The translations under genes and the position numbers were made by a program. This document shows, piece by piece, positions 34,978 to 44,210 of a DNA stretch of 64,000 nucleotides (the first letter of the stretch is position 1; each line of letters begins with the position of its first letter). Under the pieces are notes generated by a model that was not told the origin of the DNA, did not search any database, and worked only from the letters and a program-made list of their open reading frames with translations. This DNA is from Candidatus Limnocylindrales bacterium (GTDB taxonomy: Bacteria; Moduliflexota; Moduliflexia; Moduliflexales; JAUQPW01): assembly GCA_035559535.1 (NCBI GenBank), contig DATMBG010000012.1, positions 1 to 64,000 on the forward strand, written 5' to 3'.

Positions 34978-37443
34978 ATGAAGATTTGTTTTAATAAATC
35001 TCAAACTTTTCTGAAAAAATGGCTCCTCCGGCAGAGAGATCCCCCTCTACCTCAGGGGGATAATACGCCGGTAGACCTCTTCCGGTTCAGAAAAAGGGAA
35101 AACCCTGTAGACCTTCCTAAAGAAACAAATCCAGATTCTTCACATTTGGCACAAAAAATGAGAAACTGGAGAGGTAAGAATCCTCTTCCCCTTCCTGGGT
35201 CCAAAGCGATTATCCTGGGTTTCCTGGTAGGAATATCAGGGCTTGTAATTGGTTTATCCCCTATTGGGTTTATCCTTGAGGAAAACCTGGGTCTGAATCT
35301 ACTGTTCCGACTTAGAGGGGCCCGGCCACCTCCGCCTGAAGTCCTGATCGTCAATATAGATAAGGCCTCTGCAACTCATCTCAAATTATCCCATAATCCC
35401 AAGAAATGGCCACGCTCTCTCTACGCTCGCCTTACAGAGAGCCTGGTAAAACAAGGGGCTGCCATTATTGTCTTCGACCTGATTTTTGATGAACCCGGTT
35501 CCCCCAGTGAAGATGCTCTGTTTGCAGATGCAATCCATAAAGCCGGTAATGTCATCCTCTTTAAATACCTGGATGGAGAAATCGTCTCCTTGCCGGATAA
35601 GAAAGGCTTGTCGACTGTAGGTTTGAATATTGAGAGATGGGTCCTGCCGATTCCTCCTCTTGCCCAATCTGCTCTGGCCATAGCTCCTTTTCCTTTGCCC
35701 AAGGTGCCTGCCCGGCTGAATCAGTATTGGATGTTCAAGGCGGGTGCAGGGGATATGCCTACTTTGCCGGTTGTAGCGTTCCAAACCTTCGCGTTACAGG
35801 TCTACGACGAATTTCTCCAGTTGTTGAAAAAGGTGAATCCGGCTCAAGCCGAGAAACTTCCCGGGGATAAACGGGTTCTTACCACTTCCGCTGATATTGA
35901 AAACCTCATTTTGACGCTGCGATCCATATTTCAAAACAATCCACGGGTCGCAAGGGAAATGCTCAAAGAACTCCAGATCTCCAGGGTCTTGGTGGAGGAT
36001 GGGAGAAAGAATCGAATTCTGCAATCCCTGATCCGGATGTATCAGCACGCGGATACCCAATACTTGAACTTTTACGGCCCTTCCGGTACGATGCCGACGG
36101 TTTCTTACCCTGAGGTTCTACAGGTTGAGGAAAAATCTGTTGCCAGTTCTCATCTCGTAGATTTAAAAGGTAAAGTGGTCTTTATTGGATCCTCTGGAAA
36201 CCTGCGGTCAGAGCTGAAAGATGATTTTCATACCGTTTTCTCCCAACCCAATGGATTGGATCTGACAGGCGTTGAAATTGCGGCAACCGCCTTCGCAAAC
36301 CTGTTGGAAGATGAATCTATTACGCCCCCTTCCCTTCTTGAGCAATCCGTCATTATTCTTCTATGGGGAATAACCTTGGGAATTCTTTGCCGTTTACTTC
36401 CGATTGTTCTCGGAGCCATGGGTGTCTTAGGACTCAGCATCCTGTATCTTATGGCTACTTATTATGAATTTAAAACAACGGAGAGCTGGTATCCAGTGGT
36501 CATACCTCTCCTTTTCCAGGTTCCCCTGACCTTCTTTGGGGCTGTTCTGTGGAAGTATCGGGATGCTCACCGGGAACGTCAAAACATTCGGGAGGCCCTG
36601 GGTTATTACCTGCCCAATGAAATGGTGGATCAGTTGGCAAAAAACGTAGCCCATATCAAAACAGGCGGTCAACTGGTTTACGGAGTTTGTTTAGCAACCG
36701 ATGCAGAACAATACACCCCTCTGGCGGAAAGGGTGAGTCCTCAACAATTGAGCCAGATTATGAATGAATATTATGGGGCTGTGTTTGAGCCGGTCCTGCA
36801 AAATAGCGGAGTTATATCCGATGTAATAGGAGATTCCATGCTTGCCTTGTGGGTGGCAACGCAACCGGACCGTGCTCTCAAGAATCAAGCCTGCCTGGCA
36901 GCCCTTGGAATCGCCGGCGCTGTGGATCGGTTCAATCAATCTTCCCATAATTTACAACTTCCTACCCGTATTGGCCTTCATTTTGGTCAGATGTCGTTGG
37001 GGAATATAGGTGCCATCCGTCACTATGAGTACCGTGCTGTCGGAGATGTGGTCAATACGGCCAACAGGCTTCAGGATCTGAATAAGCAAATGGGTACCCG
37101 CATATTGATTTCCAGTGAAGTATCCGATCAATTGGAGGGTTTCTTGATCCGGGAGCTGGGTAAATTTCTGCTACCCGGAAAGTCGAACCCCGTGGGAATT
37201 TGTGAATTAATGGGTCGTACAGAGACGTGTAGAGAGCAACAACATCAACTTTGTGCGATTTTCACCATGGCCCTGGAGGCCTTCCGCAGGCAATCTTGGG
37301 AAGAGGCTATTGAAAAGTTGAATGAGATCCTCAAAATCCATAAAAACGACGGACCTTCACTCTTTTACTTAAAGTTGTGTAAGCAATACCAACAGAATCC
37401 CCCCAAGGAACCTTGGGACGGCACGGTTCGTATGAAAAAATAA
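34978..37443 (+). CDS. CHASE2-domain adenylate/guanylate cyclase (class III)
   Basis: An 821-residue membrane signalling enzyme making cAMP or cGMP. A first membrane helix (about 75-95) is followed by an extracytoplasmic CHASE2 sensor domain (FRLRGARPPPPEVLIVNID ... GKVVFIGSS, about 105-445), then two or three helices (about 455-530), a linker and a class III cyclase domain (about 560-740) with ATDAEQYTPLAE and DVIGDSMLALW carrying the two metal-binding Asp, and EYRAVGDVVNTANRLQ. A short TPR-like tail follows. GGAGG lies 13 bases before the ATG. The next gene encodes a FecR-TPR-barrel protein, a pairing that suggests envelope sensing. Confidence 0.92.
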   Translation: MKICFNKSQTFLKKWLLRQRDPPLPQGDNTPVDLFRFRKRENPVDLPKETNPDSSHLAQKMRNWRGKNPLPLPGSKAIILGFLVGISGLVIGLSPIGFILEENLGLNLLFRLRGARPPPPEVLIVNIDKASATHLKLSHNPKKWPRSLYARLTESLVKQGAAIIVFDLIFDEPGSPSEDALFADAIHKAGNVILFKYLDGEIVSLPDKKGLSTVGLNIERWVLPIPPLAQSALAIAPFPLPKVPARLNQYWMFKAGAGDMPTLPVVAFQTFALQVYDEFLQLLKKVNPAQAEKLPGDKRVLTTSADIENLILTLRSIFQNNPRVAREMLKELQISRVLVEDGRKNRILQSLIRMYQHADTQYLNFYGPSGTMPTVSYPEVLQVEEKSVASSHLVDLKGKVVFIGSSGNLRSELKDDFHTVFSQPNGLDLTGVEIAATAFANLLEDESITPPSLLEQSVIILLWGITLGILCRLLPIVLGAMGVLGLSILYLMATYYEFKTTESWYPVVIPLLFQVPLTFFGAVLWKYRDAHRERQNIREALGYYLPNEMVDQLAKNVAHIKTGGQLVYGVCLATDAEQYTPLAERVSPQQLSQIMNEYYGAVFEPVLQNSGVISDVIGDSMLALWVATQPDRALKNQACLAALGIAGAVDRFNQSSHNLQLPTRIGLHFGQMSLGNIGAIRHYEYRAVGDVVNTANRLQDLNKQMGTRILISSEVSDQLEGFLIRELGKFLLPGKSNPVGICELMGRTETCREQQHQLCAIFTMALEAFRRQSWEEAIEKLNEILKIHKNDGPSLFYLKLCKQYQQNPPKEPWDGTVRMKK

Positions 37444-41052: not shown

Positions 41053-41064
41053 CTTTTCCCAACG

Positions 41065-41168
41065 AAAGGAGGTGATTACATCGGATCCAACACCAGTGGG
41101 TTTAAAATGGAGTGAAAGAATTATTGTAAACCCCTAAGAGGGTTTACATCCTTAACAGGAGGTAAACA
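41065..41168 (+). promoter_or_regulatory. Switch-like leader of the 70-residue protein gene
   Basis: AAAGGAGGTGATT (41065-41077) is an almost complete complement of the 16S 3' end but has no normal start codon after it. GTAAACCC (41126-41133) and GGGTTTAC (41140-41147) form a perfect 8-bp hairpin. GTTTAC of the right arm could instead pair with GTAAAC (41162-41167), which sits between the AGGAGG and the ATG of the next gene. The two pairings exclude each other, as in a translational switch. Confidence 0.5.
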
Positions 41169-41381
41169 ATGGCAAAATTCATGAAAATTATGATAGAAAT
41201 AGATACTGGAAAAGTTACTGTAACAGATGAAAATGATGTTCCTGCTAAAACAGGAGACAGTCCTGATAAAAGAGGAGGGATCACCCGGGAGGAAACCTGG
41301 AGGGTGGTTCATACTCAGTCCAGTCCGGGATGCCAATGGGTTCTTACCGGTGCAGGTTGGCAATTTGTTTGCAGCCCCTAG
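41169..41381 (+). CDS. Small protein of unknown function (70 residues)
   Basis: A 70-residue soluble protein with a strong ribosome-binding site (AGGAGG seven bases before ATG). The N half is acidic and strand-like (KIMIEIDTGKVTVTDEND), the middle is charged, and the C-terminus is rich in Gly, Trp and Cys (PGCQWVLTGAGWQFVCSP). It has no signal peptide or membrane helix. The two-part layout, hydrophilic first and Cys/Gly/Trp-rich at the end, resembles ribosomally made peptide precursors, but no modification enzyme is near. It follows the FecR-barrel gene by 116 bases and may belong to the same unit. Confidence 0.65.
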   Translation: MAKFMKIMIEIDTGKVTVTDENDVPAKTGDSPDKRGGITREETWRVVHTQSSPGCQWVLTGAGWQFVCSP

Positions 41382-41951: not shown

Positions 41952-44210
41952 ATGGGAAAATATCAGGATACGATTTTGCAGACGGGAGAAACGTGTAGTC
42001 GAATTGCTTATGCCGAGACTTCAGGGATTTTAGTGGATGGAGAGCAGTATTATACCGCCCTGGATCGGGTTTTTGATAGTGCCGAATCTTATATCCTTCT
42101 TTCGATGTGGCAGTTTGATACGAGAACGAGGTTACTTCGGGCTAAAGAAGAAACCCCCACATTCCTGGAGCGACTGGTCCAGCTCCTGGATGAGCGTAAA
42201 AATCTGGAAGTTTATATCCTTGCCTGGGATTATTCGGTTTTATTTCAATTTGAAAGGGAATGGTTTTCTCAATTAAAGGTAGAACTTGCGGGGCATCCGC
42301 GTCTTCATTTCCAGTTCGATGATGTACATCCCATCTGGGGTTCCCACCATCATAAAATGACCGTAGTAGACGGGCGTATAGCCTTTGTGGGCGGACTGGA
42401 TGTGTGTGAAGATCGATGGGATACCCGGGCTCATCAATATCTAGACCCCCGCCGGAGGAATTACGATGGAACGCTTTACAGACCCTTCCATGACGCGGTA
42501 GCTTTTGTTACCGGTCGTGCAGCCCGAGCCGTTGAACGTGAGTTCTGCTATCACTGGAAATGGGCTACAGGTCAAAAACTCTGGCTTACACGTCCTGGGA
42601 ATGGAAAACCTCTACCCGATTTCCAAACGGTTAGCCAGATCCCAGGAACTCAGGTAGGAATTGCCCGAACCTTACCTCCCATGCTTTTCCCTCCCCAAAC
42701 GGCTCGACGAGATATTCAACATCTTTACCAAAAGGCTATCCTTTCTGCAAAACGCTCTATTTACATCGAGAATCAATACTTTACCTCTCGAGCCGTATTG
42801 AAAGCCCTCCAGGAGCGGCTTGCTCAGGTAAATAGCCCTGAGGATCCGTTGGAAATTGTGGTAGTATTACCCAAACTTCCTTCCGGTCTGGTGGAAATCC
42901 TGGCGATTCTCAATAACCAGCTATCCTGTTTGAGAAACCTGGCAGAAGCCTGCCGGAAAGCAGGGGTACGGTATGGTTTCTTCTATCCGATTACTGTAAG
43001 CCCGGAGGGTTCAGAACAGTTTATTTATACCCACGCTAAAATATTGGCCGTGGATGATACTTTACTGACCGTAGGATCTGCCAATACGAGCAATCGAAGT
43101 ATGGAGTACGATACCGAATGTAATCTGGTCTGGGAAGCCCACGAAAACTTTGGGGATGAAAAAAATATCCGTCGGTTCATCAGGCAAACCCGGGACGAAC
43201 TCCTGGCCGAACACTGCGGGGTTTCCGTGGAGGTGTGGCGTGAAAAACTTCATCAGCACCAGGGACGACTCCTAGATACCCTGGAGAGTTTGAAAAACCA
43301 GGGAGTAGAAAAAAAGCTGATTCCCTTCCATGAAGAGGACATCCGGGGTTCCCATAACGCCCCTCTGGAGATTCTCCCTGAAAACTTTGCCGTAGATCCT
43401 TCAGATCCTTTCTGGATTAACCCGGAAATGATGGAAGATTTAAAGGAAACCTGGGAGATCCTTCAAGGGAGCTCGGCAACCTCTCCTGACTCCGAAAAGG
43501 TAGAAAAGCCTGAGGAATCCCCTGAAGCAGAATTTAGCCGAATCAGTATTTTACGAATCCTGGGTTTAATAGGGGGTTTAATGACCCTGGTTCTCCTGGT
43601 TCGCTCCTTCTTGCCGGAAGAATTGACCATCCATAACCTTCTTGTATTCCTAAACAATTTACGTCAACAAGAAAATGCGCCCTGGTTACTGGCAGGTCTC
43701 TTCCTCTTGGCCACCCAGGCCTTTGTCAGTGTGACGGTGATGGTTATCGTTACCGCTTTGATTTTAGGGGTTGAAAAAGGTCTTGTCGTAAATGCCGGAG
43801 GAATCATCGTATCCGCTTTACTGGGATATTTCTTGGGAAGATTGGTGGGACCTAAAAGTTTAAAACAGCTATTACCTGGATGGGTTTCTCGACATATTGA
43901 TCGGGTTTCTAAACTCGGCCCCTGGTCGGTAGCTTTCTTCCGAACCGTACCCCTTCTGCCTTATCAAATATTTAACTTGATAGCCGGCGCCGCAGGATTA
44001 CGTCTGAGGTCTTATATGCTGGGAACCCTGATGGGGGACCTTCCCGCTACCCTTTTAATCACCTGGTCCGTAGGAAATCTCCAAACTGCAAATTGGCAGG
44101 AGGGTATCCCCTGGCAGACCCTGTTAGTGGCTATAGGAGTTACAGGAATTTTAACCCTCTCAGGTTATGTTCTATCTCGAAGATTGAAACGATATGCTTC
44201 TCTGGATTAA
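41952..44210 (+). CDS. Phospholipase D-family protein fused to a VTT (DedA-like) membrane domain
   Basis: A 752-residue protein. Residues 1-500 form a phospholipase D superfamily domain with two HKD motifs, HHHKMTVVDG (about 132-141) and THAKILAVDD (about 358-367) followed by GSANTSNRS, which make one phosphodiester-hydrolysing or transferring site. Residues about 530-745 are membrane helices of the VTT/SNARE-associated (DedA/TVP38) type: GLVVNAGGIIVSALLGYFLGR and FRTVPLLPYQIFNLIAGAAG. VTT proteins move lipids across membranes, so the fusion may act on membrane phospholipids at the bilayer. The gene is flanked by repeat-rich spacers and has no obvious operon partner. Confidence 0.9.
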   Translation: MGKYQDTILQTGETCSRIAYAETSGILVDGEQYYTALDRVFDSAESYILLSMWQFDTRTRLLRAKEETPTFLERLVQLLDERKNLEVYILAWDYSVLFQFEREWFSQLKVELAGHPRLHFQFDDVHPIWGSHHHKMTVVDGRIAFVGGLDVCEDRWDTRAHQYLDPRRRNYDGTLYRPFHDAVAFVTGRAARAVEREFCYHWKWATGQKLWLTRPGNGKPLPDFQTVSQIPGTQVGIARTLPPMLFPPQTARRDIQHLYQKAILSAKRSIYIENQYFTSRAVLKALQERLAQVNSPEDPLEIVVVLPKLPSGLVEILAILNNQLSCLRNLAEACRKAGVRYGFFYPITVSPEGSEQFIYTHAKILAVDDTLLTVGSANTSNRSMEYDTECNLVWEAHENFGDEKNIRRFIRQTRDELLAEHCGVSVEVWREKLHQHQGRLLDTLESLKNQGVEKKLIPFHEEDIRGSHNAPLEILPENFAVDPSDPFWINPEMMEDLKETWEILQGSSATSPDSEKVEKPEESPEAEFSRISILRILGLIGGLMTLVLLVRSFLPEELTIHNLLVFLNNLRQQENAPWLLAGLFLLATQAFVSVTVMVIVTALILGVEKGLVVNAGGIIVSALLGYFLGRLVGPKSLKQLLPGWVSRHIDRVSKLGPWSVAFFRTVPLLPYQIFNLIAGAAGLRLRSYMLGTLMGDLPATLLITWSVGNLQTANWQEGIPWQTLLVAIGVTGILTLSGYVLSRRLKRYASLD

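Follow-up and report, generated by a model that had tools for sequence, protein, structure and literature searches.

A start-less extended Shine-Dalgarno sequence upstream of a 70-residue protein gene as a candidate ribosome-bound mRNA stabiliser

What does a long complement of the 16S ribosomal RNA tail do where no normal start codon follows it? This question is raised by SD1, an orphan extended Shine-Dalgarno (SD) sequence upstream of a gene for a 70-residue protein in Candidatus Limnocylindrales bacterium (assembly GCA_035559535.1, contig DATMBG010000012.1), of which a stretch of 64,000 nucleotides (nt), hereafter the window, was analysed. SD1 (AAAGGAGGTGAT; Table 1) begins 13 nt past the stop codon of the preceding gene, and over its 12 nt is perfectly complementary to the 3' tail of the 16S encoded in the same genome (site L006: AAAGGAGGTGATCCAGCC, whose complement is AAAGGAGGTGATCC), with no ATG, GTG or TTG at normal spacing. 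A preliminary description had pointed to an isolated, nearly full anti-16S match lacking a normal start codon and suspected that it means something; the 12-nt complement bears out the first point, and the second is strengthened by the finding that SD1 is conserved and belongs to a family of sites. The genomes compared below are that of the window (G000), a sister species of the same genus (G001) and a member of another family of the same order (G002), with the full two-genome comparison confined to G000 and G001. A second, different 16S 3' end is present in G001 (L043, G001:C42:2671) and suggests a contaminant contig.

We consider it somewhat better than an even chance that SD1 works like the stabilising Shine-Dalgarno sequence (STAB-SD) of Bacillus thuringiensis cry3A, that is, as a 5' mRNA stabiliser and not as a translation start signal. 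The cry3A element, near the 5' end at -129, directs no initiation, and the 30S subunit bound to it blocks RNase J1 (PMC4113751); in Bacilli, the common determinants of stable leaders are reported to include a strong SD that no start codon follows (PMC3997798). The likeness to cry3A lies in a start-less, 16S-complementary SD that precedes the start codon by ~100 nt or more, a downstream gene with its own SD, and a host that encodes RNase J (TIGR00649, scoring 622 bits for G000 and 620 for G001, against a cut-off of 400). The present case differs in being a proposed stabiliser in a little-sampled and probably diderm lineage, and in that complementarity of 11-13 nt recurs before about ten genes per genome, mostly for exported enzymes. 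The host probably has an outer membrane because a TonB-barrel gene adjoins SD1.

From this analogy we infer how SD1 could act. The 16S tail of a 30S subunit would base-pair with SD1, no initiation would follow at that site, and the docked subunit would block 5'-to-3' decay by RNase J. The message would in this way gain a stable 5' end ~100 nt before the start codon, and the downstream cistron would outlive the rest of the transcript, while translation of the 70-residue protein would begin from its own SD. A parallel outside the Firmicutes is offered by the mycobacterial katG polypurine 5' stabiliser, a 16S-complementary purine tract tied to stability and 5' processing; unlike SD1, it sits where an ordinary SD would, 4 nt ahead of the start codon, and needs translation (PMC2358910).

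Extended SDs are more numerous in the genome than expected by chance. There are nine exact copies of AAAGGAGGTGAT against one of the reversed control, 17 of AAGGAGGTGAT against 2, and 19 of AAAGGAGGTGA against 8. When distinct sites were sorted by context, ten were intergenic, complementary to the 16S tail over 11 nt or more and lacking a usable start (orphan sites); of the others from the whole-genome search, some were ordinary SDs, some lay inside genes, and one was the 16S gene itself. For nine of the ten orphan sites, a gene on the same strand starts 69-139 nt further downstream (Table 1). A same-strand start 70-140 nt downstream is found for 10.4% of random intergenic positions, and the probability of at least 8 of 10 such sites is ~5e-7, a figure that is indicative since the range was set after looking. 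Additionally, in a sample of 1.25 Mb the sites of 11 nt or more all fell between genes, where the reversed control had none. The order-level comparison rests on 0.87 Mb of G002, in which just two sites reach 11 nt, both intergenic, 88 and 130 nt before genes.

The sites are also better conserved than their surroundings. All ten were picked in G000 without reference to G001 and aligned with it afterwards; the nine gene-linked motifs are identical at 102 of 104 positions, compared with 86.5% in the flanks (binomial P ~4e-5), and the 11- or 12-mer is letter-perfect in seven of the nine, a level of preservation shared by 23.7% of the remaining 11-mers of these leaders. The tenth site, L109, which has no gene downstream, has decayed, with two changes inside the motif in G001. 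At L142 the upstream flank matches at 36 of 50 positions and the downstream flank at 48 of 50, as if a conserved transcript began near the motif. In L046 and L122 the leader between the orphan SD and the gene changes by indels, and both SDs stay fixed.

Another reading is that of a DNA site, either a transcription factor target or a promoter element, that resembles an SD by chance. The intergenic placement, the fixed orientation and distance, and the mostly exported enzymes downstream would all suit such a site. However, the complement of the 16S tail is in the mRNA sense in nine of nine cases (even if the sites were searched for as such), and at L125 the motif has lost a 3' T and gained a 5' A in G001, so that its ends shift while 11 nt of 16S complementarity stays. 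We judge a DNA site distinctly unlikely.

Translation from SD1 itself was a possibility put forward in the preliminary description, which had named a leader peptide. Such a peptide would start at a non-canonical codon (ATC at 7 nt, or ATT/ATG at 2 nt) and be coupled to the downstream gene. The ATC frame does close with a stop codon in both genomes (TGA/TAA), G001 has an ATG at 2 nt, and at G002:C7:99334 an extended SD is followed by a GTG-started open reading frame (ORF) of 26 codons that overlaps the next start as ATGA. Against this, none of the nine G000/G001 leader pairs has a conserved start codon 3-13 nt past the motif, and thus a normal start at usable spacing is kept in none of the nine leaders. 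A spacing of 2 nt is too short to place a start codon in the ribosomal P site, and the sequence changes are too few to show coding. A leader peptide at SD1 is, in our estimate, a shade less probable even than a DNA site. The G002:C7:99334 ORF may nonetheless be a coupled leader peptide in its own right, an alternative role for one of the two G002 sites.

The preliminary description had centred on a possible translational switch between SD1 and the 70-residue protein gene, and its structural observations are correct. GTAAACCC (41126-41133) pairs perfectly with GGGTTTAC (41140-41147) over 8 bp, closing a hairpin loop of 6 nt (-11.2 kcal/mol), and GTTTAC can pair instead with GTAAAC at 41162-41167, next to AGGAGG. 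We find that this second helix extends through UCCU/AGGA, which had gone unmentioned, to 10 pairs (-10.0 kcal/mol). The GTTTAC arm is common to both, and folding thus gives the two mutually exclusive states of near-equal energy that had been anticipated, in which hairpin 1 would leave the start open and helix 2 would close it, possibly in response to a ligand or temperature. Yet the leader (41060-41175) folds no better than shuffled sequences (z -0.78), a perfect 8-bp hairpin arises in 162 of 5,000 shuffled leaders (3.2%), and the 64 kb contain 65 arm positions of this sort, many of which overlap. A search of the leader against Rfam gave sub-threshold chance matches and no family.

The comparison with G001 also goes against a switch. 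In that genome SD1 is intact, as are the start-proximal SD and the start codon, whereas the hairpin region shows 61% identity, contains gaps and has a run of C in place of GGGTTTAC. As both pairings need the GGGTTTAC arm, its loss removes hairpin 1 and helix 2 together, while the protein remains 69/70 identical. The pairings proposed earlier are thus not kept in the only relative, an outcome that the preliminary description had itself named as refuting its proposal. A conserved switch is thereby refuted, barring an error there in G001, a metagenome assembly of low stated coverage with a C9 tract at the hairpin arm; we hold a switch to be highly improbable. The hairpin is probably an incidental, lineage-specific feature that arose by chance. 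As a terminator it gave a weak minus-strand match only, with no gene to terminate, and was rejected.

Helix 2 also enters into a further alternative, ribosome standby, which the preliminary description had likewise named. SD1 would here be a landing place for the 30S subunit, which would then reach a sequestered start ~90 nt away by sliding or jumping, and initiation would rise, as for tisB. In favour of standby, SD1 lies ~100 nt upstream, like the ribosome contact of the tisB standby site relative to its main ribosome-binding site (PMC7708055), and helix 2 could cover the start-proximal SD in the window. A sequestered start is less evident: the sequestering arm is absent in G001, and the start regions of the nine downstream genes, at 0.41 unpaired (predicted), are no less accessible than those of 150 other genes (0.44, p 0.47), and so are not unusually structured as in tisB. 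A 30S-bound stabiliser fits better than standby because of this ordinary structure, and we regard standby as unlikely. All three readings, standby, leader peptide and DNA site, are weaker than that of a STAB-SD-like stabiliser.

The 70-residue ORF is a real gene under purifying selection, because the G000 and G001 proteins are identical at 69 of 70 residues, with six silent changes and one changed codon. Among 385 genomes, its one relative is that in G001 (contig JAUQPW010000075.1); no significant match was found in Pfam, NCBIfam, PHROG or the PDB, and no relative among the phages and viral contigs searched. The Cys/Gly/Trp-rich tail remarked on earlier is present. An AlphaFold2 model built from the two sequences showed six possible strands at low confidence (predicted local distance difference test score 53) and was not used.

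The proteins encoded downstream of the orphan sites appear to be mostly exported. A strongly hydrophobic N-terminus occurs within the first 30 residues in five of nine targets, compared with 198 of 987 genes, and within 60 residues in seven of nine. Both G002 downstream proteins have signal-peptide-like N-termini, and one has a weak match to periplasmic binding proteins.

Several observations count against a stabilising role for SD1 and its siblings. SD1 is predicted to be partly paired in its own leader (~35% unpaired), and the 70-residue protein has no export signal, unlike most other targets. SD matches of 7-10 nt show no positional excess at 60-140 nt, the excess being restricted to at least 11 nt, and the 70-140 nt range was chosen with the sites already in view. 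L119 is placed at the very end of an upstream ORF, and L121 is cut to 9 nt in G001. Finally, only two genomes carry the full comparison, in a lineage known here from metagenome assemblies.

On a wider scale, we tentatively propose, at rather less than even confidence, that the order carries a small regulon marked by start-less extended SDs ~70-140 nt before genes for mostly exported proteins, in which the 30S subunit would set mRNA lifetime and 5' ends. This would place STAB-SD-type control far outside the Gram-positive bacteria, whereas the known examples come mainly from a handful of Bacillus mRNAs. If so, blocking of 5' exonuclease decay by the 30S subunit may be an old and general way of selecting which mRNAs last. 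It would also supply a simple sequence rule, open to testing in any bacterium with RNase J: a complement of the 16S tail of 11 nt or more that lacks a start codon and precedes a gene by 70-140 nt.

Table 1. Features of the SD1 locus in the window, and the gene-linked orphan sites elsewhere in the genome with the products of their downstream genes. Distances run from the site to the gene start.
Feature	Position	Strand	Distance (nt)	Remark
Upstream FecR-TPR-TonB-barrel gene, 1144 residues	37618-41052	+		stop codon 41050..41052
SD1 (L110), orphan extended SD AAAGGAGGTGAT	41065..41076	+	104	proposed STAB-SD-like 30S docking site; distance from SD1 start to ATG of the 70-residue protein gene; identical in G001
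Hairpin 1, GTAAACCC-CTAAGA-GGGTTTAC	41126..41147	+		lineage-specific, probably incidental
Alternative helix 2, GUUUAC-A-UCCU / AGGA-G-GUAAAC	41142..41167	+		would cover part of the start-proximal SD
Start-proximal ordinary SD AGGAGG of the 70-residue protein gene	41157..41162	+		6-nt spacing; region fully conserved in G001
70-residue protein gene	41169..41381	+		two Cys in Gly/Trp-rich C-terminal tail
Site L116			112	cyclase
Site L119			91	acetamidase/formamidase
Site L121			69	apiosidase-like protein
Site L122			120	metallo-beta-lactamase-fold hydrolase
Site L123			139	pyrroloquinoline quinone (PQQ) alcohol dehydrogenase-type protein
Site L124			76	membrane protein, no assigned family
Site L125			89	amidohydrolase
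Site L142			119	polyketide-cyclase fold protein

The surroundings of the locus can be described briefly. A CHASE2-guanylate cyclase gene (34978-37443, + strand) precedes the FecR-TPR-TonB-barrel fusion gene, which has no full-length ortholog in the two other genomes of the order. Downstream, a 91-nt intergenic stretch of the window genome (41546-41636) is absent from G001. The gene at 41952-44210 (+ strand) encodes a fusion protein in which two phospholipase D motifs are followed by a VTT (DedA-like) membrane domain at the C-terminus, and its conservation in G001 is 94%.
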